In this document: piece by piece, positions 18,162-64,000 of the stretch | Layout of the letters: each line of letters begins with the position of its first letter | Numbering within the stretch: the stretch's first letter is position 1 | Source of the DNA: Stentor roeselii | Taxonomy: Eukaryota > Ciliophora > Heterotrichea > Heterotrichida > Stentoridae | Reading direction: 5' to 3' | Assembly: GCA_006503475.1 (NCBI GenBank) | Contig: RSEH01000100.1 | Coordinates: 1-64,000, forward strand | Length of the DNA stretch: 64,000 nt | Made by a program: the position numbers and the translations under genes | The notes under the pieces: generated by a model | What the model saw: only the letters and a program-made list of their open reading frames with translations | Databases searched by the model: none | What the model was told of the DNA's origin: nothing

Positions 18162-21100
18162 ATGTTCTTGATCTTGTTTATAATTCCTTGGCTCTGCTAC
18201 GCAACGAAAGAAATCGAATACAGGCTCTCAAAGAACTACGGACAGTTGATATACGACTTTTCCGGTCACTCTCGTCATCTATCCAATGGCAATTCTCTCG
18301 ATACCACCGACTATGATGGAAAATTCACTGATCGAGGATTCTATTGTTCAATTTTCACATGTGCAGTACCATTATCTTCAAACCCTCCAATGAATGTCCC
18401 TAATCCAGGAACAGTCGTAGTTTGGGTAAAAACTTCTTCTCAAGCAGGGTACTGTTTTCATCAATTTATCAATGATTCAAACCGCATATTGTACACCAAA
18501 TCTTCTTCAAATGTACTTGAAGTTCTCTATAATTTCAATGAAGTAACACTTCATTCAGTAAAAGGCCCAAGTGACTCTTTTCTAAGCAGTAAATTTTAAT
18601 CAGATCAATGGGTGATGATATCGATCATCTTCTCAGGAAGGTTTATAAAAGTTCATCAAAATCTGAAGTTAATGATTACTCTTGATTATATCACTGAATA
18701 TATACAAACTTATAGAATGGTTTTAGGGTCTTGCTTGAGTAATTATGTTACAAATAGTTTTTTTTATTATTTTGCGGTTTTCAGCTCTGATTCTGTGCAT
18801 GATAAATATATTGGCCTTGCTTCTAGTAAGTGCTTTACTGGAGATAATACTTGTGGGACTTGTAGTCTTTCTGTTTATTTGGAGTTTGAGAATGAATATG
18901 GCTGTGTTTCTGAAAGTTCTAATATTCAAACTGATGCATTTGGAAATAGCTGTTTAAATGGATATACTTGCAGGGATGGATTATCCATCCAATGTTTATG
19001 TGAGAGTAAGTCTTGTTATTTCCAGGGAAGTACTAGAATTGAGTGCATTCAGAAATCTAATGGAGAACTTACTCAAGCAGCTGTAGCTTGCAATAGTGTT
19101 GGACAAGGGTGTTGCTTAAATATTTGCTATGAATGCAACTTGAAAAGTTCCTGTTTAAAGTGTGTTGCTGACAATGCTTTTGTTGATCTAGATGGATTGT
19201 GCACATGCATGAATGGCTACTATGGAACCAGGCCATTAACACTAAAATCATCTTGTCATCCATGCAATTCTGAGTGTAAATTATGTACAAATAACCAAAA
19301 ATGCACATCTTGCATTGCAAATAATTCTGATCCTTATCTATCCTCCTGTAAATGCAAAGAAGGTTTCTACCAATCCTCAATAATAACCTTAGTCGATTCA
19401 TGCCAACCTTGTCAAAGTGAATGCAAGACTTGTTCTTCAAATTCATCTTGCGACTCATGCATTTCAGACAATTCTTCACCAAAAAATTCATCCTGTAAAT
19501 GTAAAGAAGGTTTTTACCAATCCTCAAATATGTCCTTAGTCGATTCTTGCAAGCCCTGTCAAATTGACTGTAAGACCTGTTCTTCAATATCATCTTGTGA
19601 CTCATGCATTTCAGAAAACTCATTTCCTTATCTTTCCTCCTGCAAATGCAAAGAAGGTTTCTACCAATCCTCAATCATGACATTAATCGATTCATGTAAA
19701 CCTTGTCAAAGTGAATGCAAGACTTGTTCTTCAAATTCATCTTGCGATTCATGTATTTCAGCCAATTCTTCCCCATATGATTCATCCTGTAAATGTAAAG
19801 AAGGCTTTTACCAATCCTCAAGTATGTCCTTCATTGATTCTTGCAAGGCTTGTCAAAGTGAATGCAAGACTTGTTCTTCAATATCATCTTGTGACTCATG
19901 CATTTCGCAAAATTCTAAATTATCTTCTTCAAGATGTATATGTGAAGACGGATTCTTCTCATCAGGTCCTTTAATCACCCAAAGCTCCTGCCAGAGATGT
20001 GATAGTCAATGTTTAACATGCAGTTCTTATTCAACTTGCCATTCTTGTATCTCAAAAAATGCTTTTCCACAAGTCTCTGGATGTAAATGCTTAGATGGAT
20101 TTTTTTCAATCGGCTCTCCAGTCACTCTTGAATCTTGCATTAAATGTGATACAAGTTGTCGAAAATGCGATAGTCTAACAGAATGTATTGAATGTATTTT
20201 TCCTAATACTCTAGTTGTCAATGGAATATGTAAATGTGTTCAAGGATATTTTTCTGAAGGATTGATTTCTGAAGAAAATTCTTGCATTAAATGTCTTGAG
20301 CATTGTATTCAATGTGATAAAATTACTGAATGCTCTTTATGTGGTTTTGGGTTTAGCTTAGTTGAGAATAAATGCATTTGTCTTGAAGGGTCTTGGATTG
20401 ATAACAGTTTAAATTCGATGATTTTCTGTCGAAAATGTAAAAAAGGTTGCAAATCTTGCTCTTCCTTTGATAAATGTGATATATGCTTTGATCTCTATTC
20501 TAAACCATTTAAAGATGGATGTCGATGTATTGAAAATTATTTCAATAAAACTGAGATTACAAAGGAAAATATTTGTGAAACTTGTAAAGAACCTCACTCA
20601 AAACTAGATTTATTAAGCAATGACTGTGTTTGTGAAAAAATGTTTTTTAATTCGGGTAAAAATAAAAGTTTGGATTGTCAAAAATGTTTGAAATTTTGTG
20701 AAATTTGTGAAAATTCATCAAGTTGTAAAAAATGCTCTTCTGGATTTTTTAATGAATTTGATCGATGTAGATGTCCTGAAGGTTTTTCGTTGATAAACGA
20801 AACTTGTATACAAAATTTTTTCGGATTAAGAATAAAAGTTTCAAAAAGTAACAACTTACTTCTTGAATTTTCAGAAAATTTGAAAAATAATTTGAGTGTT
20901 TCTGATTTAAAGATAAAAATTTCAAATGAACCTTTATTTTCATTTGAAGTTTTCAGTAGGTCTAAATCGAAGAGTCAAATTATTTTAAAATTTAAAGAAT
21001 CGGTAGGTAAAAATAGTGATTTGAAGTTGAATTTCAGTTTAAGACCTGTTTTTAGTTCAAATTACTCTGAACTTGATATATATGAATATCAAGTAAGACT

Positions 21101-22289
21101 ATTTGAACTTGATTATATTGAAAATTCTGCTCAAATAATGACTGAGATTATTTTGGGTTTGGCAAAAGGACTAATTCTCACTTCAATTGTTTTTTCATTT
21201 ACAAACTCTAGAGACTTTTTTAATCTAATGAACACATTGAAAATGATTCAGTTTATTCCACTTGGCTTTGCAAGGATAACGCCTATGATGAAGAAATTGT
21301 GTAAGAATATATTTGAAATTACCTTGGTCCCTAATTTCTTTCTGTACTTTATGAAAAATCAATCTGGCACTAATCTAGTAAATGAAGTTACTGAATCTGG
21401 AATTAGTTCAATTGATTTTTTAATTAATTCAGGTGAAAGTTTATCATTTTTCATATTTGCACTTTTACCTTATCCTATTTTTCTTTGTATTTCAAAGATC
21501 AGAGTAAAGTGGATCGCTAAAAGATTCATAAAATTCTCAAAGAAATACAAATATCGTTATTTTATTCGTTTTTGGATTCAATCATATCTTGAAATAGCAA
21601 TTTTCTCTGCAATTCAAATATTTAACAAAGTTTACTTAATTCATTCTCAAGAAAAAACTTCCGAATATTATGTAAATTACACTTGTTCAATAATTTTTTT
21701 GGTATTCTTTATTTAGATATTAATCAGTTTAACTCCACCTATAATATTATCTATACTTTTGCTGAATGAATCAAAAATAAAAGATTCTAGAAATTTGGAG
21801 TTTGAGGAAAGATTTGGGACTTTATTTGATGAGTTTAAAATTGATAAGGGACTTCCTGACTTGGGGTTTTATGTTTATTTTACATTTAGAAGACTTTTTT
21901 ATGTTTTTGGTCTGGTCTTTCTTAGTGCTTATAATGTTTTTCAGATGAGTCTTCATTGCTGTTTTAGCCTGCTTAATCTGATTTTTATGTTAAAAGTTGC
22001 GAAATTCAAGAAAAATGATAATAAAATTGTTAATGTTTTGAGTGAAATGGCTATTTTTTTGTGCTTTTTTTCAGTTCTTGTTATGAATTTTTTCAATTCT
22101 GGCATTCAAGATAAATATTTAGAGAAAGTGTTTTGCTATAGTATACTTGGTTATCTAATTGTCTTGATTATAGGAATGATATTTAACTCACTGGTTTTTA
22201 TAAGAAAATTATGGAATAAGCAGCTTCAAAAGCGAGCACTTCAATTTGTAAGGCAATTCAATAAAATGAATCATATTGGTATAAAATAA
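18162..22289 (+). CDS. LamG-like/Cys-rich repeat/TRP-like membrane protein, copy 1
   Basis: One gene with two 15-nt introns (18589-18603, 21702-21716) encoding about 1365 residues. Removing them restores one frame that aligns end to end with the 23170 gene, so the TAA and TAG inside the introns are not lesions. Order: signal peptide (~1-15); LamG/concanavalin-like region (~16-190, starting KEIEYRLSKNYGQLIYDFSG); then ~550 residues of furin/EGF-like Cys repeats with C-x2-C spacing. Four 49-residue units here are nearly identical (nt starts 19411, 19558, 19705, 19852). A non-Cys linker follows, then a multi-pass C-terminus. The segment FGTLFDEFK plus FTFRRLFYVFG recalls TRP-like/Flc channel proteins. 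It is likely a surface receptor or channel; ligand and ion are unknown. More Cys repeats than its neighbour. Confidence 0.85.
18589..18603 (+). other. 15-nt intron (phase 1)
   Basis: The sequence is gtaaattttaatcag with A at position 10. It contains an in-frame TAA if retained. Removal joins AGC-A to AT-CAA-TGG, giving Ser-Asn-Gln-Trp, which matches the joined exons of both paralogs. Confidence 0.92.
19264..19998 (+). repeat. 147-nt tandem coding repeats
   Basis: Cys-rich units of exactly 49 codons start at 19411, 19558, 19705 and 19852, flanked by more diverged units on both sides. Within a unit the string ECKTCSS..SSCDSCIS is almost unchanged at the DNA level. The neighbouring gene at 23170 has only one such unit (near 24421), so three extra copies arose here. 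Confidence 0.9.
21702..21716 (+). other. 15-nt intron (phase 0)
   Basis: The sequence is gtattctttatttag with A at position 10. It ends in an in-frame TAG if retained. It lies at the same place and phase as 26266-26280 in the paralog; removal joins FL to ILIS. Confidence 0.92.
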
Positions 22290-23169
22290 AGGATTAATTT
22301 ATATAATAAAAACGTTTAAAGGATCAAATGTAATAATTTATATGAAATCTATAAATGTTTTCAAATATTTATAAAAACTGTTTCTTCATGAACTTTCTTA
22401 TTTTCAGCAGGAACTTAAATATGCATCTTCTGTGATTATATACTAAATTCTAATTACTATCAAAGCCAAATTCATTTTGTACTTTCAACAATAAATATGA
22501 ATATGTTTTTAATATATTTTTGTTTATAAAGTAGGAAATTTAAATAAATTTAACTACATTTCTTCCAAAATTAATAGATATTTCCATATATCTAATTAAA
22601 AAGTTGCAGATAGGAAATTTTCTTTGTTTATTTCAACTTATAGATCACTTAGACTCTATAGTAATTTGTTGCGAGCTTCTAAAATTTATTATTAAGTTCT
22701 TCTTGAGTTAAAAAAGCTGAAATTATATAAGTTTGAATGTATAATAGTGACTATTTAAAATACAAAGGTATAATTAATACTTAAATGGTAAAGTGAACTA
22801 TATGATATTATAAAAATTCATCCTAATAATGAAATATTTCTTACACAATCTTAAGTAAAAATAATTTAGTCTATAGTAAGTTAACATCATTCTAAAAGTT
22901 GTCCAAACAAAATTTTAGATTATATTGTCGAGAATATTATATTAAATTTATATCCTTCTAAAATCTAAACCCAATTTGCCTCAATCATGATATTTTATAA
23001 TAAAATAAGCCCATCGTGTATCTTGATTAATTTTTCAATATTTTCAATCTACTTTGAAATATAAAAAAATCAATAAAACCTCTTGTATCAAGATTCATTC
23101 ATTCATTTCCTAAATCCAAGTACTATTGAAGTTAAAATTCAATTTCATATTTGATTAAATATCCTAATA
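22290..23169. other. AT-rich spacer between the two Cys-rich genes
   Basis: 880 bp of AT-rich sequence without ORFs of note and without clear similarity to the flank of the upstream copy, except in the last bases before the ATG. I see no gene or repeat in it. Confidence 0.6.
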
Positions 23170-26100
23170 ATGCTCCTATTGCTCTATCTTCCTTTGATAT
23201 GCTCACCGACGAAAGAAATCGAATACAGACTATCAAAGAACTACGGTCAACTGATCTACGATTTTTCTGGTAACTTTCGTCATTTATCTAATGGTAAGTC
23301 TTCTAGTACAACCGAATTAGATGGAACTTTCACTGATCGAGGATTTTATGTTTCAGGAAGCGCATGTGCAATGCCTTTATCATCAAATCCATCAATGAAC
23401 ATCCCGAACCCAGGGACAGCTCTGGTCTGGGCAAGGACATCTTCAAAAGCAGGAAGATTTATTCACCAGTTCATCAACGAATCGAATTTTGTTTATTACA
23501 AAAAAGGTCCATTGAATAATATTCTTGTCACTTATCGTTTCAATGGAGGGACTTTAGTGACTTTAAATGGCGCTAGTGATTCATTTTTAAGCAGTAAAAT
23601 TTACTTAGACACTTGGGTGATGATTTCAGTCGTCTTCTCAGGAAGATATATCAAAGTGCATCAAAATCTTAATTTAGTGATGACTCTTGATTATGTTAAC
23701 GATTATGTCCAAACTTATAGAATGGTCTTGGGGTCTGGTTTAGTATCTGACCTGGGAACAAATAGCTTTTTTTATTATTTCGCTGTTTTTAGCTCTGATT
23801 CTGTGCATGATAAATATATTGGCACGGCTTCAAGTAACTGCTTTACTGGAGATGGCACTTGTGGAGTTTGCAGTTATTCAATTTACTTGGAGTTTGATGA
23901 TGAATATGGCTGCGTCTCAGAACTAGGTGATAGTCTAACTGATGCAACTGGAAGTGCCTGTTCAACAGGATATAGTTGTAGGGATGGACTTTCAATCAAT
24001 TGCTTGTGTCCTAGCACTTCTTGTTATTGGAAAGAAAGTAAAGTTGTTCAATGCGTTCAAACTTCCAGTGGGGTTCTTAATAGAGCTTCAATAAATTGTG
24101 ATAGTGTCGGCCAAGGATGCTGTTTTAATATTTGCTTGGAATGTGAGTATAAAGACAAATGTTTAAGTTGTGTGGCTGACTATGCATTTGTTGATGAAGA
24201 TGGATTGTGTACATGTGGGAATGGTTATTACGGATTAAGACCACTCTTACTAAAATCATCATGCTCTCCATGCAAACCTGAGTGTAAAACATGTGAAAAC
24301 GACAAAGAATGTCTCCAATGTCTATCAGAAAACTCCGAAGCCTACCTATCCTCATGTAAATGCAAAGACGGTTATTACCAATCAGAACCGATAACTTCAA
24401 TAAACTCCTGCAAGCCCTGCCAAAGTGAATGCAAGACCTGTTCTTCAATTTCATCTTGTGACTCATGCATATCAGACAACTCTCAACTGTCGTCTTCAGG
24501 TTGCAAATGTGAAAAAGGCTTTTTTTCATCCGGTCCTCTGACAAGTAAGACATCATGCGAGAAGTGCGACGATCAATGTTTGACCTGCATTTTTCATTCA
24601 AATTGTGAAACTTGTGTATCAAAAAATGCTTATCCACAAGAATCAGGCTGCGAATGTGAAGATGGCTTTTTTTCAATGAGTTCTCTTATCACTCCAGACT
24701 CCTGCATGAAATGTGAATTAAGTTGTAAAAAATGCAGAAGTTTTTCTGAATGTTTAGAATGCTCTGATCCTAATGCCCAGATAATGAATGGAAAATGCAG
24801 ATGTCTTCAAGGGTATTATTCATTTGACCCTATGAATACAAATATTTGTATTAAATGCAGTGAACATTGTAATGAATGTGATAACTTTAATCAATGTTTG
24901 TTATGTAGTGATGGTTTTAGTCTAATTGACGGTATCTGTGTATGTCCGGAAAGTTATTGGATTGATAGTAATTCTAATTCAATAGCTCTTTGTAGAAAAT
25001 GTAACAAAAGTTGTAAGTCTTGCACTTCACTTGATAAATGTGATCAATGTGTTGATAGTCATGCAAAACCTTCTAAAGATGGATGTCGTTGTAATGAAAA
25101 CTATTTCAATAAAACAGAGATTTTTAAAGAAAATACTTGTGAAACTTGCAACGAGATTCATTCAAAACTTGATGTTTTAGGTAAAAGTTGTATTTGTAAA
25201 AAAGGATTTTTTAGCTTGCCGATCAATAATAGTTTGAATTGTCAGAATTGCCAAGAATTCTGTGAAATCTGTTTTGATTCATCAAGATGTGAAAAATGTT
25301 TATTTGGTTTCATTTATGAGTCAAATATTTGCAAATGCCAAAAAGGATTTTCACTGTTAAATGATTCCTGCAAGCAGAACTTTTTTAATTTAAGCATCAA
25401 TGTTTCCAATACCAATACCTTAAAACTTCATTTTTCAGAAAATCTTTTGAAAACTTTAACTATTTCTGATCTAAACCTTGAAATTTCAACAAATCCTTTA
25501 TTTTCATTTAAAATTTTCAGAAGATCAAAAAAAGAAATTCAGATTTATCTGAAATTTAAAGAATCTTTACAAAAAAACAGTATTTTAAGCTTAAGCTTTA
25601 CTTCTAGGCCTGTATTTAGTTCAAATTATTCAGAACTTGATTTATATGAATACCAAGTAACTCTGGAGCAGTTTAATTTAATTGAAGATTCTTTTAACTC
25701 GTTTGTTGAGTTAACTTTGGCATTTGCTAAAGGTGTTATAATCAGTTCTGTGGTTTCTTCATTTAGTGACCCAAAAAATTTATGGAATTTATTGAGTTAT
25801 TTGCAACTTATTCAATTTATTCCACTTGGATTTGCAAGGTTGACACCTTCGATTAAAAAATTATGCAAGAATGTTTTAAATGTTAAAATTGGGCCGAATT
25901 TTTTTCAGTTTTTTATGAATAGTGACTTGAAGATCAATACCATAAATGAGATTACTGATTCTGGAATGAGTTCTACTGAATTTTGGGCTAATTCAGGTAA
26001 GAACTTTACTTATTTTATATGTTTATTGATATTTTTTCCTTTTTTTTGGTGTTTTTCGCAAGTTAGAGTAAAGTGGGTCAAAAAGAAATTTGAATCTTTA

Positions 26101-26805
26101 TCAAATAATTATAAATATAGTTTTTTTCTTCGCTTTTGGATTCAAGCATATCTCGAATTAGGTGTCTTTTCTATAGTTCAGTTTCATAGCAAGTTCTACA
26201 TAATAATATCAGAACCAAGAACATTAGGATTTTACACAAATTATGTGAGCTCAATAGTATTTTTGGTAATAATTATTAAGATTTTGATCAGCATGACACC
26301 ATTTATTATTCTGTCAATTTTGTTATTGAATGAGGAAAAGATAAAAGATTCTCTAAATTTTGAATTTAAGAAAAGGTTTGGAACTTTGTTTAATGAGTTT
26401 AAAACTGAAAATGGTTTAGCAGGCTTAGGATTTTACTTTTTTTTCACATTCAGAAGACTTTTGTATATTTTTGGCCAAGTCTATTTAAGGAATTTAACCA
26501 TCGTTCAAATCAGTCTTCAATGTTTTTTAACCTTTGTGAGTTTTGTTTATATCTTGAAAATTGTGACATTTAATGATATGGATAATAAAATCCTTAATTT
26601 ATTGAGCGAGTTAGCTGTTTTTATTTGCTTTGGCTCAGTTCTTGTGATGAACTGCTTTGATCCTGGAATGCAAGATGAATATCTGGAGAAAGCCTTTTCT
26701 TTTACTATTTTTGGATATCTTGTTATCTCTCTTTTGTCAAATTTTTACAAAAAATTGATTATGATCAGAAAACTTATAATTCCCACTGAAAAAAAGAGGA
26801 CATAA
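23170..26805 (+). CDS. LamG-like/Cys-rich repeat/TRP-like membrane protein, copy 2
   Basis: Tandem paralog of the 18162 gene. The frame is open over its whole length, but comparison with the paralogs shows two stop-free 15-nt introns inside it (23594-23608, 26266-26280); the spliced product is about 1201 residues. Order: signal peptide, LamG-like region (~15-210), furin/EGF-like Cys repeats (~220-740), linker, then a multi-pass C-terminal third with KRFGTLFNEFK and FFFTFRRLLYIFG, similar to TRP-like/Flc proteins. Between KPECKTC and the FFSSGPLT unit it has one 49-residue repeat where copy 1 has four. It is probably a surface or secretory-pathway membrane protein; a sensory role is a guess. 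Simple translation of the DNA would wrongly add ten residues. Confidence 0.87.
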   Translation: MLLLLYLPLICSPTKEIEYRLSKNYGQLIYDFSGNFRHLSNGKSSSTTELDGTFTDRGFYVSGSACAMPLSSNPSMNIPNPGTALVWARTSSKAGRFIHQFINESNFVYYKKGPLNNILVTYRFNGGTLVTLNGASDSFLSSKIYLDTWVMISVVFSGRYIKVHQNLNLVMTLDYVNDYVQTYRMVLGSGLVSDLGTNSFFYYFAVFSSDSVHDKYIGTASSNCFTGDGTCGVCSYSIYLEFDDEYGCVSELGDSLTDATGSACSTGYSCRDGLSINCLCPSTSCYWKESKVVQCVQTSSGVLNRASINCDSVGQGCCFNICLECEYKDKCLSCVADYAFVDEDGLCTCGNGYYGLRPLLLKSSCSPCKPECKTCENDKECLQCLSENSEAYLSSCKCKDGYYQSEPITSINSCKPCQSECKTCSSISSCDSCISDNSQLSSSGCKCEKGFFSSGPLTSKTSCEKCDDQCLTCIFHSNCETCVSKNAYPQESGCECEDGFFSMSSLITPDSCMKCELSCKKCRSFSECLECSDPNAQIMNGKCRCLQGYYSFDPMNTNICIKCSEHCNECDNFNQCLLCSDGFSLIDGICVCPESYWIDSNSNSIALCRKCNKSCKSCTSLDKCDQCVDSHAKPSKDGCRCNENYFNKTEIFKENTCETCNEIHSKLDVLGKSCICKKGFFSLPINNSLNCQNCQEFCEICFDSSRCEKCLFGFIYESNICKCQKGFSLLNDSCKQNFFNLSINVSNTNTLKLHFSENLLKTLTISDLNLEISTNPLFSFKIFRRSKKEIQIYLKFKESLQKNSILSLSFTSRPVFSSNYSELDLYEYQVTLEQFNLIEDSFNSFVELTLAFAKGVIISSVVSSFSDPKNLWNLLSYLQLIQFIPLGFARLTPSIKKLCKNVLNVKIGPNFFQFFMNSDLKINTINEITDSGMSSTEFWANSGKNFTYFICLLIFFPFFWCFSQVRVKWVKKKFESLSNNYKYSFFLRFWIQAYLELGVFSIVQFHSKFYIIISEPRTLGFYTNYVSSIVFLVIIIKILISMTPFIILSILLLNEEKIKDSLNFEFKKRFGTLFNEFKTENGLAGLGFYFFFTFRRLLYIFGQVYLRNLTIVQISLQCFLTFVSFVYILKIVTFNDMDNKILNLLSELAVFICFGSVLVMNCFDPGMQDEYLEKAFSFTIFGYLVISLLSNFYKKLIMIRKLIIPTEKKRT
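23594..23608 (+). other. 15-nt stop-free intron (phase 1)
   Basis: The sequence is gtaaaatttacttag with A at position 10. It has no in-frame stop, so the ORF reads through it. It is identified by position and phase identity with the introns of the 18162 and 62756 genes; removal gives Ser-Asn-Thr-Trp. Confidence 0.88.
26266..26280 (+). other. 15-nt stop-free intron (phase 0)
   Basis: The sequence is gtaataattattaag with A at position 10 and no in-frame stop. It is identified by its match in place and phase to the stop-containing intron at 21702-21716. Confidence 0.88.
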
Positions 26806-27853: not shown

Positions 27854-27886
27854 ATTTATACCATTCGTGTATCCTTATTATTCGAC

Positions 27887-28708
27887 ATGAACGCCAAGAG
27901 GTAAGAGCGAAATAGCGAACTGAAAAATATTAAAAAACAAAACAGTTACCTTGCACAAGTACTTGATAAATATGCATCTCGAGCTGGGAAAGTCAGGGTT
28001 TCTAATAGCAATAGTCCTTTAAATGGAAAAAAATTTAGTGCTAGTCCAACAGAAAGTAGTAAAAAGTACTTTAAAGCGAAAAAAGAACTTGATTCACTTA
28101 TTCAGCAGAGGAAAAAACTTCAAGAATGTTATAGTCAGTCTAATTTCAATAAAAGTCGAAGTCAACTTGAAAAAATCAAGGAACAACTGGAGGTTAAGGT
28201 GAAAAATTTGACTGAAGAAAATGAAGGGTTAAAATATGAACAAAATTTACAGAGTGTTTGTTGGAAACCGGCTGAAGTTGATGATGTTGCTAAACTTAAG
28301 GCTAAGCTGAAGGAATTGGAAAGTGAAAGAAATGAACAGTTAAAAATTTTAACGAAAATTCGTGATAAAGAGTTTTTTGAGAAGTGTGTTAGAGATCAGG
28401 AATTCTTTGAAAATGAGGTTTTGGCGAGAAAAAGGAAAAAAATTAGTAAAATGAAGAAGTTTTTGGAAATACTGGAAAAACAAATTAGGAGTAACCAAGT
28501 CAAGTTCGCGCAAGAAGTCAAAGAATTGATGGACTTGCAGGAAAAGTTGGAAAGAGACAAAGTCATGATCCAAATAAAAGTTCTAAAAATGAAACAAAAG
28601 GATCGTCTACTTGATATCTCTCAGAACTCTTTCACCCCAACAGAAAGAAATTCCTACTCAAAAGTAGGTTTTCTGTATAAGCCTTCCATAAATCATCTTT
28701 ACACTTAA
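27887..28708 (+). CDS. Coiled-coil protein with a 14-nt first coding exon
   Basis: A 268-residue coiled-coil protein. The open frame from about 27916 has no ATG near its beginning. Removing a 15-nt intron at 27901-27915 links it to ATG at 27887, giving MNAKSELKNIKKQ and a continuous frame. Residues ~55-240 are Glu/Lys/Leu-rich heptads; the C-terminus is Ser/Thr/Asn-rich. No enzyme domain is seen. It could be a structural or cytoskeletal protein, but I do not recognise it. The first coding exon is only 14 nt. Confidence 0.8.
27901..27915 (+). other. 15-nt intron (phase 2)
   Basis: The sequence is gtaagagcgaaatag with A at position 10. If retained, TAA is read at once. Removal joins AAG-AG to C-GAA-CTG and supplies the only plausible start for the gene. 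Confidence 0.88.
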
Positions 28709-28775
28709 TATTCTGAACATTTCTATTTTTTTCAAAACTTAATTAAAACATCAAGTTGTAAAACAAGCCCTGACG

Positions 28776-28959
28776 CAATAACTCCACCAATCCACTTAAA
28801 AATCCATCATCCCATTAAAAAACCTCAAAAAACCCATAAAACCTTCAAAATACCTCAAAAACTCTAATTTCCAAAAAAAAACTCATAAACCTAAAAAAAA
28901 AATCCTATTCACTAACCCTTCATCATAATCCCATCATTCTTCCACTATTTCCTCAACAT
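28776..28959. other. 184-nt tract without any G
   Basis: The plus strand has no G from 28776 to 28959. It is made of A, C and T with A-runs and repeated cctcaaaaa-like strings. It fills most of the 294-bp gap upstream of the copine gene, whose promoter it probably contains. Confidence 0.9.
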
Positions 28960-29002: not shown

Positions 29003-30937
29003 ATGGGAATCGCATTATGCAGAGATAAATCTTCAACCGAAGTAGAACCAAGCATCTTCAGTTTTCGAAACTCGACCCTTCCAAACGACTTGCCCGAACA
29101 ATTGATAAACCTTGACGAGCCTAGCAAGTCAGAACCGTCGAACGTGATTGAGATCACATTAAAATGTGTAAATCTCTTGACTGATAACCGTTTTGCTTTA
29201 CTGAACCCTGTGATTCACATTCTGGTTGAAAGCGGCTTCGATTATGTTAAAAAAGCGGAGACTGAGACTGTTTTGAAAACACTTAACCCGATTTTTTCGA
29301 ACAAAATTAAGATTTCTTATGGATTGAAATACTGCCAAAAACTTAAATTTGAGGTTTTTGATTATAAAATTCAGACGAAAAGTAAGGAGTTGGTTGGAGT
29401 TGTTTTTAGTTCTATACATGAAATTGCGGTGAAACATGGACCTCTTGTTAAGGATATACAGAGAAAGGGGAAAAAGGTAGGTTCTCTTTATATATCGATG
29501 TCTGAACTGAACTATATCAATGATTTTATTAAAATGCAGTGGGAGTTTTCGACTACCTGCAAATACGGGCACTCAATTCTCCGTCTATTCCGAGAAGAAG
29601 AGAAGCAAATCCAAACAATCTACCAAACCGAAAGTCAAGACTACCCTTACAGTAATTCCTACTCAGGATGGGAGCAATTCGGTCTAACAATGAACCGTTT
29701 ATGCAAAGGAGACGATTGCAAGCCACTAACATGCGAAATGGTTTCAATTGATGATTCAGAAACTGTGATATTTTCAACAAAATTTTCCCTTCGAGAGTTG
29801 AAAGAACTGGAAAATTATTCAGTTGACTTCAACAATGACTCAGTTCTGCAAAAACTTCAGCTTGTTCAGTTCCAAGTCTCAAAGCAGAGCTCTTTCATTC
29901 AGTATGTCCAGTCGGATGTGAAATTTACTGTCATCTATGGAATTGACTTTTCTAGTTCGATAGGCCATGAGGAAGAAGACAACCCTTATATTAAAACAAT
30001 TAGTTCACTCCAAGAAGTTCTTCAGTTCTATTCAAATGAGCCGAGTTTTCTCGCTTTTGGAACGGGAGGTACTTTTCGTGAAGTTAATGAAACGAGTAAC
30101 TTTTTCTCGATTTCAGGGAATATTTTTCGGCCCAGGATTTGTAACTCGACGATGCTTAATGAATGCTACAAAACCACTTTGTTCAATGTGAGCCCTTCGC
30201 ATGACCCAAAGCTCAGCCCATTTTTCAAAAACCTTCTAAACCAATTTTCATTCGAAAAGGCGACATGCAGCACATACCAAATCGTAATATTCATGAACAG
30301 CCAAGATATAAACGACAAACCAGACCTAAAGACAGTCTTACAACAGCTTGTCAAGTACCCAGTGAGCATAATTTTCATAGGCCTTGCCCAGGAGTTCGAA
30401 TCCTTCAACACTTTAAAGCAGTTAGTAAATGAAATCCGTTTAGAAGCCGAAAGAGAATATATAAGCTTCGGCTACAGCTGGGAAACTTTCGACTTACTCG
30501 AAAACATAAGCAGCCAAGTACTTCAATTTTTTAAAATAAATCCAATTCCAATCGCTGAAAGACTTCCAAGAGTATCTCGAACAATAACTCTAAGCGCAAA
30601 ACTTCTAAACGACAAGATAAAATCAAATTACGACTTTTACTCAAACTGCAAAAACTTAACAATTGAAAAAATGAAGGACTCAGGGTACAACAGTGAAAAG
30701 ATCTTCGAGGTAGAACTGAAAGGAATTCCTTACTTTGTCCATGATTTCAACGTGGAAACTATTCTTCCCAGCATGAATCTCAAGTCAAAGACCATAAGAC
30801 TCACAAGGCAAAAGTCAAACAAAGCAGTTTGCATCAGTTGTGGACGTATTTCAATGAAATTCACTTCTCTTAGATGTGGTTGTGTCAATGTTTGTGAGAA
30901 TTGCGTGAATAGCTATAGTTGTACCAAGCATAATTAG
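29003..30937 (+). CDS. Copine with C-terminal RING-like motif
   Basis: A 644-residue copine-type protein: calcium-dependent membrane binding through C2 domains and a von Willebrand A-like domain. Two C2-like regions occupy ~48-180 and ~185-300 (EITLKCVNLLTDN, TLNPIFSNKIKISY). The vWA-like part begins at ~308 and has a MIDAS-type D315-x-S317-x-S319 (GIDFSSSIG). The last 35 residues hold a Cys cluster: C610, C613, C625, C627, C631, C634, C640 and H643, which reads as a compact RING-like zinc motif, as in plant RGLG ligases. Those ligases lack C2 domains, so this layout combines both types. Gly2 and Cys6 after the initiator Met could be myristoylated and palmitoylated. It stops with TAG, 9 bp before the next ATG. 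The membrane-bound ubiquitin-ligase role is inferred. Confidence 0.9.
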   Translation: MGIALCRDKSSTEVEPSIFSFRNSTLPNDLPEQLINLDEPSKSEPSNVIEITLKCVNLLTDNRFALLNPVIHILVESGFDYVKKAETETVLKTLNPIFSNKIKISYGLKYCQKLKFEVFDYKIQTKSKELVGVVFSSIHEIAVKHGPLVKDIQRKGKKVGSLYISMSELNYINDFIKMQWEFSTTCKYGHSILRLFREEEKQIQTIYQTESQDYPYSNSYSGWEQFGLTMNRLCKGDDCKPLTCEMVSIDDSETVIFSTKFSLRELKELENYSVDFNNDSVLQKLQLVQFQVSKQSSFIQYVQSDVKFTVIYGIDFSSSIGHEEEDNPYIKTISSLQEVLQFYSNEPSFLAFGTGGTFREVNETSNFFSISGNIFRPRICNSTMLNECYKTTLFNVSPSHDPKLSPFFKNLLNQFSFEKATCSTYQIVIFMNSQDINDKPDLKTVLQQLVKYPVSIIFIGLAQEFESFNTLKQLVNEIRLEAEREYISFGYSWETFDLLENISSQVLQFFKINPIPIAERLPRVSRTITLSAKLLNDKIKSNYDFYSNCKNLTIEKMKDSGYNSEKIFEVELKGIPYFVHDFNVETILPSMNLKSKTIRLTRQKSNKAVCISCGRISMKFTSLRCGCVNVCENCVNSYSCTKHN

Positions 30938-35648: not shown

Positions 35649-37052
35649 TTATTGGAGAGGATGCAACATGTAAACTAACTGTGCCTCAAACCTTGCTTCA
35701 CATATGAGAAGGTTGAGGTGAATCATGTCATCATGGCTCAGGTCATATTCAATTGAAAGGTAATCATTTTTACTGACTGTTTCAGGCATGCAGGCCACTT
35801 TTTTTATATACTTTTTCGTGTTGATACCTAAAAGCCTGTTGACGTCGGTGTAGTTGTAGTCGTCGTATTGAAGTCCATAAACCCTTTGCACGTAATTCCA
35901 AATCGCTCTTCTCAAAGGAGCAGTCTCTACCCCTGAGTCCTGCCCAATCGTATCATAAGTCATCGCGAAGGTCATTCGAATGCGATTCCAAACACTATCT
36001 GAGATCTCAGGTACGATTTTTTCTAAAATGTAAATCGCCTGGTCTGAAAACTTGAAATCAGAAGCGTTAAAAGAACGAGCGATGAAGTCCATTGGGTAGT
36101 TTATGTAAGGCAAGTAACCTCCTGCTAGTCTTGAGAAGTAAATATCTTCGTCTTCACCGTTCAGGTCTTCTGAAGAGTCCGAGATGTAGTCTTCGTATTC
36201 AGTGGACTCGGAATAGCTTTTTAGAATCGAAGTCACACTTGTCTTGCTTTGCTTCAGTGAAGGACTTGCAGGTTCTTTAAAAGTGGAATTCGGGAAATCG
36301 CTGTCTTCTACAATGCCTACACCGAAGACAAACCCTGCAAGGCAATGAAACTGACACATAAGGGTCAAGGCGAGAATTAACTCGTTTAAGTTCCACACGG
36401 TTAGAAGCTCTTTGATGTCCTTTTCTCCGAATTCCCAAGGACGATGAGCGAGTTTCACATTCGCATTTCCTAAAAGACTGATTTTTTCAGGGACTTCACC
36501 AAAAATCCAGGAATTATGAAAAAGTTCTGAATAAAACTTCTCAAGTTTCATTAAATATTCACATTTGTGAGTCGCTGCTGCCATATATGCGATATAATAT
36601 CTCCAAACATAAGGTAGGCTTAAGTCACTCTCGAAGATGATCTTTATGACCTCGAAGTGCTTGTCAAGGTAAAAAGGAAAGTTTCCCATGATTCTTTCGT
36701 GCTTTGGAATTCTTCCAGAAAATAAAAAAAGATCATGCATCAGTTTTGTGAATAAGGCTTTTTCCTCTTGGCTTGGAAAACGGGACTCGAATAGAAGTGA
36801 TTTTATGGAATCTTGGGGAACGAAGTGGGAAATCAAACATTCTTCGTACTTCTAAATGGGGATTACCATGCTTAGTGACGTAAGATGTCTTTCAAGAGCT
36901 GTGTGAAGGTTCATAAATGGAATCAATCCTTTGAGTTTTCGCATTTTTTCTAGGTCTTCTCGACTGCCTGTTGAAAGAATTTCAAGTAACTCGTCTTCAG
37001 ACGCTGATGGATTCGTTTTTAGGCAAGAAAGAATTTTGCTTTCTAGATCCAT
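35649..37052 (-). CDS. SESN: Sestrin
   Basis: A 462-residue sestrin with one 15-nt intron (36853-36867) after codon 62. In animals sestrins bind leucine and GATOR2 and restrain TORC1; they also have an alkylhydroperoxidase-like half. The N-terminal half matches at YYIAYMAAATHKCEYL and KLAHRPWEF, the C-terminal half at TYDTIG, LRRAIWNY, YDDYNY and HLNLLICEARFEAQLVY. From memory of human SESN2: the reactive Cys (here C159) and the Tyr two residues on (Y161) are kept, but the His seven residues on is Glu (E166), so peroxidase activity is doubtful. The leucine-pocket Thr-Tyr-x-Thr and Leu-Arg-Arg are kept, while the Trp and Glu near the end of the pocket look replaced by Glu and Asp. An acidic insert (SSEDLNGEDED) lies before the C-terminal half. 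Confidence 0.93.
36853..36867 (-). other. 15-nt intron (phase 0)
   Basis: On the minus strand it reads gtaatccccatttag with A at position 10. It contains a terminal in-frame TAG if retained. Removal joins SLSM to KYEECLISHF and merges two open frames into one sestrin. Confidence 0.92.
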
Positions 37053-37788: not shown

Positions 37789-39009
37789 ATGGAGTGTCCA
37801 ATCTGCATCAGTGAATTCGATAACGAAAGCAAAAAACCTCTCCTTTGCACATGCGGTAACTCAATCTGTGAAGACTGTGTAAACTTGATGGTTTTAAAAG
37901 GAGCAAACACTTTTACCTGCCCTCTCTGTAAGTTTACAGTCAAGAGTTATAAAGACCACTCACTTCAAAAGAATAGTCACCTTCAAACTTTAGTCGACCG
38001 TCTGGATATTTTGCGTTTTCCAGTCCGTGAAAAGCAATGCTTAACAGAGCGTTTGATATACAGAGAAGCTGGGAGTCAATACGAAGAGACCTCTAAAAAA
38101 TCCTCCTACAGCGAATTTCTATCAGTCTTCGGAATCTCTCTTTTCGCAGTAGTTTTTTTACCCTGGGTAAGAAAAATGCAGACAATTCTTTACTTGCTAG
38201 GATCCGGGCTATCCGAGGAGACTTGCAAAACAGAAAACAGGTGAGGACCATTCAGGAGTCTATTCGGAAGCAACATAATCCTTTTCTTCCTTTTTTCAGT
38301 GATTTGGACAGTTAACAGCGACAACTTGATCGACAGTAACGTGAGACTAAAGAAGTTCTTCTTGCTCACTTTTTCCTTTTTATCAGGAGCGGCTTTATTT
38401 TTCTATGAGTTAGACTGGACAATAAGAAACTATCTCAAATTTCAGGGTAAAAAATAAAAAGGTTTTTGCTGGGGTCTTACTTTGACTTTTCTTGAATCCG
38501 CTCTTAATGCTTTGCTGCTTTCAGTGTTGCTTACTGAATGTATTGACAGATATATTTTAGAGGGATTTTCAGATTTCAGAAGATATTATTTTAGTGAAAA
38601 TTATTGCAAGTTGTTAGTTTTGCCTTTGACCTTTTTTGCGATTTGCTTTTTTTATTTGGTATGGTTTATGAAGGATTATCTCGTGATTTCTTTTGTTGGG
38701 GAAGGATTTTTGGAACTTGGTTATTTTGAAAGAGTTTGGATTGGATTATTCGTGTTTGCGCAAGTTTTTTTGATTTGGAATACTTTTGTACCGCTTTTTA
38801 CTGAGGTTAAGTTTATTTATACCACTTGTTGTCAGTTGTTTTTGATCTCTTTTGTGAACTTGGTGGTTTTTGGATCGTTGGTCGGGGTTTTTTATTTGAA
38901 TTCGGCAACTAGCAGATTTTCCGTAGAATTATTCTACCCTGGAGTGGCAGTTGGTGGGTTTTCAGTAGTAATTATTCTAGCAGGAACTATTCTAATTAAG
39001 ATTTATTAA
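37789..39009 (+). CDS. RING-finger multi-pass membrane protein
   Basis: A 396-residue protein from three exons; removing 15-nt introns at 38241-38255 and 38447-38461 gives one frame across what look like separate ORFs. Residues 3-50 form a RING-type zinc motif: CPIC, then LCTCGNSICEDC, then CPLC. The position usually held by His (Cys-Gly-His) is Asn. After a polar stretch come about eight hydrophobic segments (from ~residue 110 to the C-terminus). It is likely a membrane-anchored ubiquitin ligase; the substrate is unknown. The protein ends ILIKIY. The start (ttaataaATG) is divergent from the SAS-6-like gene; the end is 76 bp before the next ATG. Confidence 0.87.
38241..38255 (+). other. 15-nt intron (phase 2)
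   Basis: The sequence is gtgaggaccattcag with A at position 10. It is the only one of the ten that starts GTG. If retained, TGA is read at once. Removal joins AAC-AG to G-AGT. Confidence 0.88.
38447..38461 (+). other. 15-nt intron (phase 1)
   Basis: The sequence is gtaaaaaataaaaag with A at position 10 and an in-frame TAA if retained. Removal joins CAG-G to GT-TTT and connects to the membrane-segment frame ending at 39009. Confidence 0.9.
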
Positions 39010-52575: not shown

Positions 52576-54960
52576 TTAAGCATTTTTGACCTGTTCTACT
52601 AAAAAAGCGTAAAGTTTAACAGCTTTTTCTTGAAATTTCATTGATTTCTCCTTATTTTTCTCAAACCTAAGTAGTTCCAAGTAGTCGCTAACAGCACAAA
52701 GTCCATCCTGCAGACAATGTCCATACCTCATTGCGATTTTTCCAATATTATAAAGAAACTTCGTTTCAGAACAAACACTAAAAAGCATTAAATCACTGCT
52801 ATCACTCGATTTCACTTCTTGAAGCCCTGAAGCCTTCTCATCTTGATGTCTCAAGTCAAAACTGACCTTTTTCGAATAAAAACTTCCATCAAGCTTCTCA
52901 GTCGCAAGACGATTTCCTCTTCTTTGAAGATGTTTTTTTGGACTTATTTCAGCCTCTTCGATTAACTTCTTGGAAAAGACTCGGCAGTCAGTGAAGGTTT
53001 CGATGAAAGAGTTTTTGTAGTTACTGAAACTGTAGGCGTTGTAAGAGTTTAGGACTTTTGAATGGGCTTCTGTTAACTCGTGAATTGAACTTGCTCTTTG
53101 GAGGACTTTTGTGTATTGGATGTTGGCGAAGGGAAAGGGAGGGAGAAGCTTTGCGAGACTTTTTAGAAGAAGGATTGCTTTGCCTGGCTTTCGCTGTTTT
53201 ACTAGGATTTTAGAGTAGATTAGGTTCACTTTCATCCAGATGTAACTGGGGACTTGAGGGTTTCGACATTTGGTTATCATTTCGCTTGCTACTGATTTCA
53301 TCGATTTTAGGTCGTCTTGTTGCTTTAGGAAATCTAGAAGGACGAAGTAAGCAGTCATTTTAACAGTTGAAACCCCAGATACCGAGTAAAGTTTCTTCAA
53401 AGCTTCATCACACCTTCCAATTTTCCACAAGCACTTAGCCTGCAAAATATCAGCCGTTAACTTATGAAACTCCTGTACCTCTTCACAAATCCTAAAAGCC
53501 TTTTCAAAAGCAACAAGCTGAAACTCAGCAGAGATTAAATTTTCAACAAGTACAATTTTATCCATATTCGGTTTGACTTCCTGCACAAAACTAGTCATTT
53601 CAGCAATTTTCTTAACTTTTCTTTTATCCAAGAACTTTCCCGCATTAATAGCATAAAAAAAGGCATCCGAGTGAAGCCTTGCAAGAATAAAAGCTTTTGC
53701 AAGCCAATAATAAATATCTCCAAAGCGAGTTTCATCACAAAGCCTAAGAGATTCAGTTAAAGCACTAAGAGCAGTGCCGTTATACCTGAAGTCTTCTGAT
53801 TTTGTGCAGAATTTTCCGAACAAATAAAGAAAAACTGGGTATGTCGGGTGTTCTACGAACTTTTTCTGTAATAAGGCGAAACATTCTTTGAATTTATTTT
53901 GTTTGAAGTAAACTTTTGCTGAATATATGCAGAATAAGACGTAGTATTGGAAATTTATGTCTGGGTTTATTCGAAGAAGAGCTTCGGATGAGATGTCTCC
54001 TGCTAGTTCTAAGTCTTTTAGTTGGGAAAAGGCAAAGTTGAAGTATTTTATGTAGGCTTCTGGACGACTTCCGAATCTTTTTATTAGTTCTTGGATTAGG
54101 TTGAGGAAATTGTCTGAAGCGTTTTTTCTTAGGTAGACTTCTGACCAGGATAGGTAACCGATGTACTCGTCTTTGATTTTTAGTTGAGATGCGTAGTATT
54201 CTGGCTTTTCTACTTCTTCTAAGGCTTTTAAGGATAACTCGAGAAGACCCCAGAAACTTTCGATTGAATCTAAACGTTCTAGTTGACCAGCTAAACTCTC
54301 AACTCTCCTAACACTCGAGCAGCACCAAATCCTCTGAAAAAAAGAAAGTCTTTCACACTTGACATCTTTTTCCTTTCCAACCTTAACCCTAATCAAGCAA
54401 TTCCACAGCTCATAAAGTCTATCCCTACAAACAGCCTGAGCTTTTTCCAAATATTCCAAAGCCAGATTGAATTTCCCTTCATAAGCCAAAATCCTAGCAA
54501 TTCCAAAATGACTTTCATGACAAGCAGTGGTCCTGAAAACTTCCTTGCAACTCGTCTGTTCAAAGTCAGGAATCAAGTACTTTAAATGCTTGTCAGGCAC
54601 AAAGAACAAGACAAGAGGAGAAGCCAGGTCAGATTTACAGTTTTCATCAATTTTTTGACGAATTTCACTTTCTTTTAGTTTTCTTCGTTCTTCCAGCTGT
54701 TTTTTTGCAAGTTCTTCCAACTGCTCGCTGTTTGAATAGCTTAGAGATTGAGCTTCTGAGTAACCACTGTTTGGAAATTACTTGATTTTAAATTGAAGAG
54801 TCGTGTTACGAGGAGATACTTTTAACTGAGATTTGCAGATTTCGTAAAATTCGGAAGAGTTTGGAGAGAGAAGAGAGCATTGACTGCTGCGGAGGCTCAG
54901 GTCGGTTATTGACTTCTTTTCGATCCTCTCAGAAGGGTTGGCAGGTGGGGCAAGTTCCAT
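52576..54960 (-). CDS. TPR-repeat protein
   Basis: A 789-residue protein from two exons (intron at 54767-54781 in plus-strand coordinates). It consists mostly of TPR-like helical pairs: for example LAYEGKFNLALEYLEKAQAVC, YNGTALSALTESLRLCDETRFGDIYYWLAKAF, and AKCLWKIGRCDEALKKLY. Residues ~590-660 are a polar, Ser-rich insert. It recalls TPR scaffolds such as the APC/C subunits or BBS4/TTC proteins, but I cannot place it. The first exon contributes MELAPPANPSERIEKKS at the start. The ATG is 11 bp from the stop of the CK1 gene. Confidence 0.85.
54767..54781 (-). other. 15-nt intron (phase 2)
   Basis: On the minus strand it reads gtaatttccaaacag with A at position 10. TAA is read at once if retained. 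Removal joins ATC-AA to T-GGT and merges the first 59 codons with the TPR frame. Confidence 0.9.
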
Positions 54961-54971
54961 TATTAACAGCC

Positions 54972-55934: not shown

Positions 55935-55967
55935 ATCTTATATAATGAAACAGTCCCCTTCTTATAA

Positions 55968-59768: not shown

Positions 59769-60023
59769 TTAGTTAATGTTTTATTGGAAAGGTTTGTTTA
59801 TTAGGTAATTTAAAGGGGCTTGAGAGTTTTTTATCTTATATTTGATTATCTTTCCCAATATAAAAATTTATTTTGATGCTAAATCACTTTAATCCAATCT
59901 CAAATTTTTAATATCATACCACCTCTATTCCTAAATTTCATAAACTCAAACATTCATCACTTCAAAAACAACAAAAATCCAAAAAACTGATGGCTACTAA
60001 ATTAACCATCTAACATTAATACT
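59769..60023. other. Short spacer with a 110-nt G-free tract
   Basis: No gene. Positions 59879-59988 contain no G on the plus strand, just before the next plus-strand gene, as seen upstream of the copine gene. The topoisomerase side (59769-59878) is C-poor instead. Confidence 0.65.
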
Positions 60024-61004
60024 ATGGAATTTTCAGAAGATTTCGAACTAAAAAGACTTTCGAAATCTAGATGTATAGTAGGTGAGTCAAGCCCTACAAC
60101 CCGTCTCTCAAGAATCCACCACAAAAGCATGACAATATCTAAAGACAACTTCGATTCATCCTGCAACTATTCCTTAGACTCCAAGCATCTTCCATCATCT
60201 GCATCCAAAGAAGACTTAGAACTTGACCTCGTAATCGAAAAAGACACAAGTTACCTCCAAGAAAACAATCAAGCAAAACAATCATCATTAACCCTTCTGC
60301 TCCAACAAAAAGAAGAATTTTTTCACCCATCGCCAATAAAAACCCTGAACCTGACCCTCTATTTCTTCAGAACTCTTAACAAAATCCATCTTTCAGTCCC
60401 TGTCGAAATAATTTCAGGAGATCTGATCGCGAAAGCGCTTTTAAAATATGACAAAACCGACTTCCCAAAACTTCCTCATGGACTTGATTCCCAAGGGTAC
60501 GACTTGTGGATCGCCGATGAAGACTCCTGCTTGCCTGACATGGACTACTCAATTGAACCCGGCACTTTTGTAGCTTCTTTAAGGGTGAAAACTTTTTGCA
60601 TATGTGAAAAACCTGGCTTTCGATCAAGTATTTTTAATTCTAACAACGGTTCACAGAAAGTTATTAAAAATAGCAGGCCTGGCACTGTTCATACGAAGTT
60701 TTTTTTTGAGAACTCGTCAGTTGTTGTTGCGGTGAAACCTGATGATAGTTTGGAGAAGGTTCTTGTTTTACTTTGGAAGAAGTTTTTTGTTTTTGGGGAT
60801 TTGAATAAAGAACTTTGGGAATTTAGGGTTTTTGTTAAGGAGATTGGAAATGAATGTGCGGTTGATATGGGGTTGATGATTAAGGAATTGCCGAGGGTTG
60901 ATATTCGCTTGTATAGGAAGGTCTTGGCTGATATTCCTAGAAGTGCCTTTTATAAAAAGGGGACTAGTAGTCAGTATGTGTTTAAGGAAAGTAGTTTTAT
61001 GTAA
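60024..61004 (+). CDS. Possible SIN1/AVO1-like protein (TORC2)
   Basis: A 326-residue protein. Residues ~106-198 recall the CRIM domain of SIN1/AVO1, the TORC2 subunit that recruits substrates: HLSVPVEIISGDLIAKALLKY, followed by YDLWIADEDSCLPDMDYSI. A second part (~226-326) has a ubiquitin-like or RBD-like pattern (KFFFENSSVVVAVKPDDSLEKVL), as SIN1 also has after the CRIM domain. The N-terminal 100 residues are Ser-rich and look unstructured. No PH domain is visible at the C-terminus, which SIN1 normally has. The similarity is only by eye, so this may be an unrelated protein with ubiquitin-like folds. Confidence 0.4.
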   Translation: MEFSEDFELKRLSKSRCIVGESSPTTRLSRIHHKSMTISKDNFDSSCNYSLDSKHLPSSASKEDLELDLVIEKDTSYLQENNQAKQSSLTLLLQQKEEFFHPSPIKTLNLTLYFFRTLNKIHLSVPVEIISGDLIAKALLKYDKTDFPKLPHGLDSQGYDLWIADEDSCLPDMDYSIEPGTFVASLRVKTFCICEKPGFRSSIFNSNNGSQKVIKNSRPGTVHTKFFFENSSVVVAVKPDDSLEKVLVLLWKKFFVFGDLNKELWEFRVFVKEIGNECAVDMGLMIKELPRVDIRLYRKVLADIPRSAFYKKGTSSQYVFKESSFM

Positions 61005-62755
61005 GATAAGAGGTTTGGGTTTTTATTGGTTTTTGTTTGGTAGTGATTTGAATTAGAATGAATGGAAATTTAGTTGGTTACGATTTATATTATTTAGGAA
61101 TAGAGAAGTTTTGTTATTGTTTTAGTTTTTAATTTTAGAATCTTTGAATTCAAATATTATTTAAAGATTGATCATTAATTTAGCTATCGATTCTGCTATC
61201 TAGTATCTCATAAAGTTATAAAAGTGATATCCACAATAGTAAATTTCTTGAGTTGATATATATTAAATTTTATTTTTATTTGGTACTAAATTTTTTAATT
61301 TCTCTGTAGATGAAAATATTAAGAATTATCACTTGTAATGATGCTATAAATGTTTGTAATCTTGATAACCTTACAATATGTATTCTTTAGAGTGTGATTA
61401 TTAGTAATTATCATGATAATTAAATGATAGAAGATTATTAAGTTAACAATATTATTTAATTTACTATTCTAAAGGGTTTCTTGCTCTATCAGAAATTTGT
61501 CTCAACTATTTTCTTAAACTACCAAGAGCTATAATATCTTCTTGAATTAATTTCTAAATTGCTTTTGATTTTTTATCATATTTTAAGATAGCCCCAATTA
61601 TAATTCCGAATGATTCTACCCTAATGTTATTTGTGGGATTTTAGTATCTGTGGACATCATAATGATTGGGAATTGTGATAATTTTGTCTGTATTATTAGG
61701 AATTATTTTTTGATTAGTACTTTCCTTTTAACTCTTTTAATATCTATTGTAAATTTTTTCAAGAAAATTTTAAAATCTATAAATTTGTCAACCGAACAAA
61801 GAAAGTATTTTGAGATATTATATGAAGTAATTAGAAAATTTTAGGTTGTTTGTATATTAGAGAATTTATTAATTTTTATGTTGTCTGATGGACTAAATTA
61901 TTATATCGATACATATTCTGACGCAATTCAATCACTAGCTTATAAACACTATTGGAAAATCAGATATATAGTAATTATAATTCAATTTTTATAAGAAGAA
62001 TATCTATTCTAATGTCATTTTTTATATAATTCTGTTTTTAATCTCTGGAATAATTATGTACCATAATACTACAAATGTATCATTCACATTAATAGAATAG
62101 TTAAGTACGATCGGATTATAAAACAATAATATTTATTACTTTGATACAGCTAAAAAACTCTATATGCATTTTTTAGAATTTTCATTTAATTTTTAAGAAG
62201 GTAAATATTTTATTCGAGTTTTGAATCTTAACTCAATTTAGATCTTGACAATTTATTTGATCATTAATTGTATTTCAATCCTATATGTGTAAAATCGCTG
62301 CTTGAACACTTCCATTTTTAATCTAGATAGTATGGGATAATATAAATCAGCAGGCAATTACTTAAGAACTATTTCTCATATATTAAGTAAGGATTCTTTT
62401 ACTAAACCTGAAATAAATTTTATGATTGTAATTCAAAACAAAAAATATAAAATTCTTTATGTCATCTTCCTGAAAAATGAAGAGAAATCTAGTCTTGATT
62501 TACGAGACTTACTGAAGAAGATTGGAACATTAGTTTCATCCAAATCACTAAACTACATCATAAGTCTTAATTTTCAGTTGTCTAGAGCCTTTACTGGATA
62601 AAATATTTTTCTGTTGAAAAAAAATTTCCCTTTTCTTTATAATAAATGCCGAAATTCCAATCTCGAGTACTTCAAGAAGTACTCGATTTGTTTAGATATT
62701 CTATATTCAGAAGATTATATAGCTAAACCTCAATAGAATCCAACATAGGTAATAA
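61005..62755. other. 1.75-kb AT-rich spacer
   Basis: No gene is visible; short frames such as 61650-61844 look like chance. The first ~140 bp are C-poor and rich in G and T on the plus strand (3' flank of the 60024 gene). No repeat, telomere sequence or RNA gene was seen. It separates the compact block from the next Cys-rich gene. Confidence 0.6.
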
Positions 62756-64000
62756 ATGGCTCTCTTTGGATTGGTATTAATCCTGTTGTTGTCAACATCC
62801 TTGTCAACTAACGTAGTTTACTACAAATTTGGCTCAAATTTCGGTCAAATTTTTTACGATTATTCAGGGATGGGCAACCATGGACAAAATGGTGAAAGCA
62901 TTACTTCGAATATCAAAGATACTATTCCAACAGATAGAGGGGCTTACTTTGGTTTGTCTACAAACACTTATATTAAGTTACCTCCAAATAATATCAAAAC
63001 CTCATCTTTACAACTAGGCTCTACCTTTTCAATAGTTATGTGGTTTAGGCCCTCATATGTCGCTAGTGATACTGAATACTATCTCACTAAGCGCTTTAAA
63101 GATTCGAATAACTTCTTGTATTGGAAGAGAGACGAGGAAGATAAGGAACTAGAGGTTGAAATTGATATAAATGGTTCTGAATTTGAAAAGGAATTTGAAA
63201 ATGTATCAGCACCAAGTAAAATATAATTAGATATCTGGTCATATTTTGTTATGGTAGTTCAAACAAACAATGCAAAACTTTATACATATAATGAAGAATT
63301 TAGATTAATTTCTCTAGGTTCAACATATAGTGAAACTGGTGATTATGATCATTATATTGGCTATACAGAAGATTCATTTAAAGGATTTGTTTGGAGTTAC
63401 TATATTTATAAATCAGAAGTTCATTACGAAGATTATTATTCAAATTCTCATACTGTTGGAAATTGCTTGGTTACTCCCTGTCCAGCAAGCTGCCAACCTG
63501 CAATAAAGGAAAATGGTAAAAGCTACTGCATTTCAACGTCTTCAAGTTATAGTTGTCCATCATGCTCATATGGGTGCCTTTCAGGCCTATGCTTAGATTG
63601 TGGAAGTTGTTCAAATAAAAGTTGCTCAGTAATCTCAAATGCTGTAAAATGTCTCTGCATAGATCTATTTGGCTCCTCTTGTTCATGTACTTCTGGTACT
63701 TACCTATCAAGCTCTTCTTTTGAATGCGAACCCTGCTATTCCGAATGCTTAACATGCACAACAGCCCTCAAGTGCACAACATGCAAAGACATCAATGCTA
63801 TACCTCATGACATAATAGGTTGTACCTGTAAACTCAATTACCAAAATATGACTGCTTTGATAAATGAAGGGAATTGCATAGCTTGCCATTCCGAGTGTGC
63901 TTCATGTCAAAATGAAACCACTTGTCTAACTTGTAAAGACTTAAACGCATTACCTGATCCAAATATAGGATGCATCTGCAAAACAAAATACTTCAACTCA
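62756..64000 (+). CDS. LamG-like/Cys-rich protein, third family member (partial)
   Basis: The start of a further relative of the 18162 and 23170 genes, cut by the right window edge. It has a signal peptide (~1-20), a LamG-like region (VVYKFGSNFGQIFYDYSG onward) and one 15-nt intron (63216-63230) at the same place as in the relatives. The frame then stays open to position 64000, about 410 residues so far. Cys repeats begin near 63465 (CSYGCLSGLC, CYSECLTCTT, CHSECASCQN, each followed by C-x2-C pairs). The repeats differ clearly from those at 19411-19998. The start has ggtaataaATG context. A multi-pass C-terminus is expected but not visible. Confidence 0.87.
63216..63230 (+). other. 15-nt intron (phase 1)
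   Basis: The sequence is gtaaaatataattag with A at position 10 and an in-frame TAA if retained. Removal gives Pro-Asn-Ile-Trp, matching Asn-x-Trp in both relatives at the same position. Confidence 0.92.

Follow-up and report, generated by a model that had tools for sequence, protein, structure and literature searches.

Ten uniform 15-nt introns with an adenine at position 10 in a ciliate-like genome, and a Prp18-like gene that may lack the conserved loop

The ten 15-nt strings listed in Table 1 are almost certainly U2-type spliceosomal introns, of the same uniform 15-nt class as those of Stentor coeruleus. The window, by which we mean the whole 64,000-nt stretch of DNA analysed here, was read again on both strands and spliced by script. 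As an earlier note on this DNA had claimed, every one of the ten strings is 15 nt long, begins with GT, ends in AG and carries an A at position 10 (A10). Nine of the ten coordinates given in that note were exact; the remaining one, 36853, was off by one, the true intron being 36852-36866 on the minus strand. The weakest of the ten is 27901, whose upstream side is hardly tested because it lies only about five codons downstream of the first ATG of its frame.

Table 1. Position, phase and in-frame stop of the ten 15-nt introns in the window
Sequence	Position	Strand	Phase	In-frame stop (intron positions)	Gene and context
GTAAATTTTAATCAG	18589..18603	+	1	9-11	large Cys-rich, probably membrane protein (by eye)
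GTATTCTTTATTTAG	21702..21716	+	0	13-15	second intron of the gene holding 18589
GTAAAATTTACTTAG	23594..23608	+	1	none	same place as 18589, in the tandem relative; five-residue insert if unspliced
GTAATAATTATTAAG	26266..26280	+	0	none	same place as 21702, in the tandem relative; five-residue insert if unspliced
GTAAGAGCGAAATAG	27901..27915	+	2	2-4	coiled-coil-like protein (by eye); weakest of the ten
GTAATCCCCATTTAG	36852..36866	-	0	13-15	sestrin (PF04636) gene
GTGAGGACCATTCAG	38241..38255	+	2	2-4 (TGA)	RING-finger protein
GTAAAAAATAAAAAG	38447..38461	+	1	9-11	same gene as 38241
GTAATTTCCAAACAG	54767..54781	-	2	2-4	protein of about 790 residues
GTAAAATATAATTAG	63216..63230	+	1	9-11	relative of the genes holding 18589 and 23594; missed by both Markov scans

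An insert of 15 nt does not shift the reading frame, so an intron of this length interrupts it only if it contains an in-frame stop. Eight of the ten do so, where the earlier note had counted seven found through frame breaks; the other two are visible through relatives only. In phase 2 (27901, 38241, 54767) the stop occupies positions 2-4 of all three introns; in three phase-1 introns (18589, 38447, 63216) it occupies 9-11, and in the phase-0 introns 21702 and 36852 it occupies 13-15. We also collected 20 introns, namely the ten of Table 1 and the ten scan candidates with A10 from outside the window (see below; the candidate lacking A10 was dropped). Among these, 13, 9 and 16 would hold a stop in phases 0, 1 and 2, respectively, and three would do so in all three phases; a stop can come from the splice signals whatever the phase. 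In its own phase a stop is present in 18 of the 20, a count that is biased because ten of them were discovered through that very stop.

Is a length of 15 nt more than an accident? We scanned 313,180 bases in 26 stretches (the window and 25 others) for GT-AG strings between 9 and 30 nt long that, once excised, leave two open, coding-like frames joined, position 10 being ignored. There are 17 such frame-repairing strings at 15 nt, compared with a mean of 3.0 (1 to 6) over the 21 other lengths from 9 to 30 nt; the chance expectation is about three strings at any length. The periodic Markov coding model used in the scan was built without regard to intron length or position 10. It had 264,000 of these bases as its training set, so that the scan is partly tested on its own data. 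The scan detects only those 15-nt introns that contain a stop, and it recovered six of the eight stop-bearing introns of Table 1, 27901 and 63216 falling below its thresholds. An earlier Markov scan, which covered lengths up to 45 nt, recovered seven of the eight, including 27901 and missing 63216. Before these, a break scan that relied on a weak codon model and set a high threshold had turned up a single 15-nt GT-AG candidate and six of other lengths, and the periodic Markov model took its place.

One might take the 15-mers for DNA inserts of another sort, for example retained internal eliminated sequences: the genome is very probably that of a ciliate, and ciliates excise short DNA inserts in the soma. 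We consider this very improbable. The strings have GT...AG ends and an inner A, and a pyrimidine precedes the AG in eight of the ten. The count at 15 nt is 17 for GT-AG; for thirteen other dinucleotide pairs it ranges from 0 to 5 (from 1 to 11 at lengths of 14, 16, 17 and 18 nt), and the genome contains U1, U2 and U6 RNAs, described below. We give about as little credence to the idea that A10 stands out only because the introns are AT-rich or because candidates were chosen with the motif in mind. Positions 3-13 of the ten introns are indeed 81.8% A+T, and the Stentor motif was known to the earlier reader. However, the scan that was blind to position 10 still finds A10 in 16 of its 17 candidates at 15 nt (10 of the 11 outside the window), whereas among the 59 candidates of other lengths (11-14 and 16-30 nt) 14 have an A at the equal distance from the end (Fisher p-value 1.8e-7). 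The seventeenth candidate (GTCTTAACTTAATAG, in L019) has neither A10 nor a GTA start and may be a chance match; the GTA start is also missing from two candidates with A10, namely 38241 and one in L023.

The two introns that contain no stop, 23594 and 26266, lie within a single open frame (23155-26805) and are therefore revealed by relatives alone. Genes related to the large Cys-rich, probably membrane protein occupy 18061-26805 of the window (two in tandem) and 62757-64000, and they share intron places. The tandem relatives (approximately 18.1-22.3 kb and 23.2-26.8 kb) were compared over two aligned stretches of about 200 and 170 residues, in which the second gene, translated without splicing, is longer by exactly five residues at 23594 and again at 26266. 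These inserts are strong evidence for both of the predicted introns that break no frame. The third relative, which holds 63216, has diverged further and gives a gappy alignment by machine; judged by eye, its intron falls at the same N-x-W place as 18589 and 23594, all three in phase 1, in agreement with the claim that three relatives have this site in common. Least probable of all is translation of the 15-mers, whether as five added residues or by readthrough of stops. Their length does preserve the frame, which stays open in two of the ten, but eight carry an in-frame stop and, at the two that do not, a relative is shorter by exactly five residues.

Can such introns be recognized by their motif in the genome as a whole? 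In the assembly (44.4 Mb, 522 contigs), the strong pattern GTANNNNNYANNYAG occurs 6577 times on both strands, compared with 4113 for the same pattern read backward, which is a crude control. The excess, about 2460, is similar in order of magnitude to the approximately 2300 obtained by scaling 16 introns per 313 kb to 44.4 Mb, both figures being rough. The looser GT-N7-A-N3-AG followed by GT shows no excess genome-wide (4756, compared with 9880 for the backward form). In the window the strong pattern fits 12 strings, of which six belong to the ten introns; the other four introns deviate from it at one place or more. We used 141 open frames of 200 or more codons to test for selection against stopless introns, although the numbers are small. 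GT-N7-A-N3-AG occurs 198 times in these frames and is thus rarer than in codon shuffles (233), and a looser form of the motif occurs 41 times as against 53.5. Strong-motif strings without a stop number 8 compared with 6.1 (23 of 100 shuffles reach 8), and the narrower GTAA form numbers 5 compared with 2.0 (6 of 100 shuffles), with few strings in either case. Two strong-motif 15-mers without a stop lie in open frames of the window, at 29652-29666 (+) and 10135-10149 (-); judging from their sequence, they could be stopless introns.

The RNAs that would recognize these signals are present, each as one listed match over the Rfam cut-off: U1 (E-value 2.3e-20), which carries ACTTACCT; U2 (6e-30), which carries GTGTAGTA; and U6 (1.2e-24), which carries ACAGAGA. 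We infer that A10 is the branch point. In S. coeruleus the conserved A has been "suggested" to play this role, an idea credited to Slabodnick 2017 (PMC10946202). The remark in the earlier note that almost no room is left for a separate polypyrimidine tract holds: if A10 is the branch, only bases 11-13 separate it from the final AG, which leaves no space for such a tract. In the mechanism we propose, the 5' end of the intron would pair with U1 and then with U6, and U2, through GUAGUA, would present A10 as the branch, giving a lariat loop of 10 nt and a tail of 5 nt that usually ends in YAG. Length and A10 would be fixed together because one spacing would serve three signals. The geometry of branching may be eased by two proteins, as has been proposed for S. 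coeruleus: a Cwc25 that lacks the glycine plug and an Isy1 with a changed N-terminus. Both genes are present here. The Cwc25 N-terminus reads MGLAFLN, without the Gly-Gly-Gly plug of human Cwc25 (PMC9505925), and Isy1 has MGEKKPPPGED ahead of its conserved domain, in agreement with the plugless Cwc25 and divergent Isy1 N-terminus described from S. coeruleus (PMC9505925). The geometry of exon ligation might in turn be eased by a Prp18 without its conserved loop, a hypothesis that is new here.

Among second-step factors, the Slu7 gene is clear (L032:1492-2379, minus strand; PF11708, E-value 1.1e-34), and its product matches the human SLU7 chain 5xjc_Z with an E-value of 2.7e-37. The idea that second-step factors were lost owing to the short distance from branch to intron end is thus refuted for Slu7, which is present. 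A genome-wide search with the Prp18 domain gave three matches at E-values up to 1, and the best Prp18-like gene in the assembly is L033:754-1800 (+). It contains the Prp4-like motif PF08799 (E-value 6e-9), a motif that occurs in both Prp4 and Prp18. Its Prp18 domain covers profile positions 29-85 of 143 with an E-value of 3.9e-5; taken alone, it scores 24.2 bits and misses the cut-off of 32.5, and in the genome search, where in-frame neighbours are included, it scores 35.7 bits and is counted over the cut-off. Its best PDB match is an ice-binding protein (E-value 0.0008, driven by repeats), and its only splicing match there is the Prp18 N-terminal domain 2dk4, a weak one (0.015). The C-terminal 149 residues alone match no Prp18 chain up to an E-value of 10, and against a profile of three Prp18 sequences (one typed by hand) the gene scores only 3.0 bits. 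The weak C-terminal and profile results suggest that the gene is strongly divergent, and they leave real doubt whether it is Prp18. Two further candidates, L034 (E-value 0.002) and L035 (0.06), were rejected by eye since their frames show no Prp18-like layout.

In the Prp18 alignment, L033 has no counterpart of the yeast loop (GNVAWPIGVTSVGIHARS), and the parts matching helix 4 and helix 5 are linked by about 18 residues, compared with about 36 in yeast (a count by eye). Nor does any of three loop-like patterns occur in the six reading frames of this locus. The yeast loop enters the active site. It lies close to the 3' splice site, near its positions -3 and -4, and deleting it changes which site is chosen (PMC10711555). 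Structural studies in yeast had predicted that Prp18 acts as a ruler for the minimum distance from branch to 3' splice site; yeast lacking Prp18 makes greater use of 25 alternative sites at most 10 nt from the branch, the shortest at 7 nt, and a short distance makes both Prp18 and Slu7 dispensable (PMC10711555). With A10 taken as the branch and the count made as in that paper, each of our ten introns has a spacing of 5 nt, which a Prp18 that retained its helices but not its loop would fit.

How exons are joined at a spacing of 5 nt is a puzzle, to which a loop-less Prp18 would be an answer, if true; the answer is concrete and testable because loop deletion in yeast alters 3'-splice-site choice. 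We tentatively propose, with somewhat less than even confidence, that in this lineage Prp18 lost its conserved loop and with it the minimum-distance ruler, so that all introns could shrink to the 5-nt spacing while Slu7 was retained. The idea is drawn from one genome and one divergent gene. Among the open-access papers that our searches matched we found no earlier statement of it; in those that name both Prp18 and Stentor, Prp18 is either listed as not found (PMC9505925) or appears only in a reference.

How do the introns compare with known systems? The published account of S. coeruleus gives 8806 introns, 92.81% of them 15 nt long and 7.19% 16 nt long, with 15-nt introns having A10 making up 90.90% of all (PMC9505925), which bears out the statement in the earlier note that Stentor has 15-nt introns. 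For heterotrichs generally, about 95% of introns are reported to be 15 bp and the rest 16 bp (PMC11441545). The intron finding is therefore already known, and our ten cases bear out, perhaps for one more heterotrich assembly, an extreme of spliceosome geometry that is already in print. The likeness to S. coeruleus extends to the 15-nt length, GT...AG ends, A10, AT-rich sequence, the usual U1, U2 and U6 motifs and the plugless Cwc25 (PMC9505925). The two differ in their second-step factors: Slu7 and Prp18 went undetected by BLAST in S. coeruleus (PMC9505925), whereas Slu7 and a loop-less Prp18-like gene occur here. We regard both as new leads. S. coeruleus also has 16-nt introns, whereas the 313-kb scan shows none above background: there are three candidates of 16 nt, one with A at position 11, and only about one would be expected at the S. 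coeruleus rate. Blepharisma stoltei similarly has mainly 15- and 16-bp introns in a compact heterotrich genome, but it reads UGA as tryptophan (PMC9942806), whereas TGA acts as a stop here. In Paramecium and other ciliates, introns whose length is a multiple of three likewise tend to contain in-frame stops; unlike the introns seen here, whose sole visible class is a multiple of three, theirs are longer and mostly of other lengths (PMC5014332).

TGA terminates 8 of the 78 open frames of 300 or more codons with a stop in view, and opening TGA lengthens frames less than opening TAA or TAG; we therefore conclude that the standard code is in use. Stentor likewise has the standard genetic code, so that a heterotrich of this type is a good fit, and we call the source a Stentor-like heterotrich. 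The one conserved 18S pattern searched for is absent from the assembly. The sestrin gene of the window (35649-37052, minus strand), in a ciliate-like genome, matches PF04636 with an E-value of 1.3e-81. Elsewhere in the assembly, at G000:C5:146718-147183, eight 15-mers followed by GT lie on one strand within 470 bases; this is perhaps a very intron-rich gene, or else a repeat.
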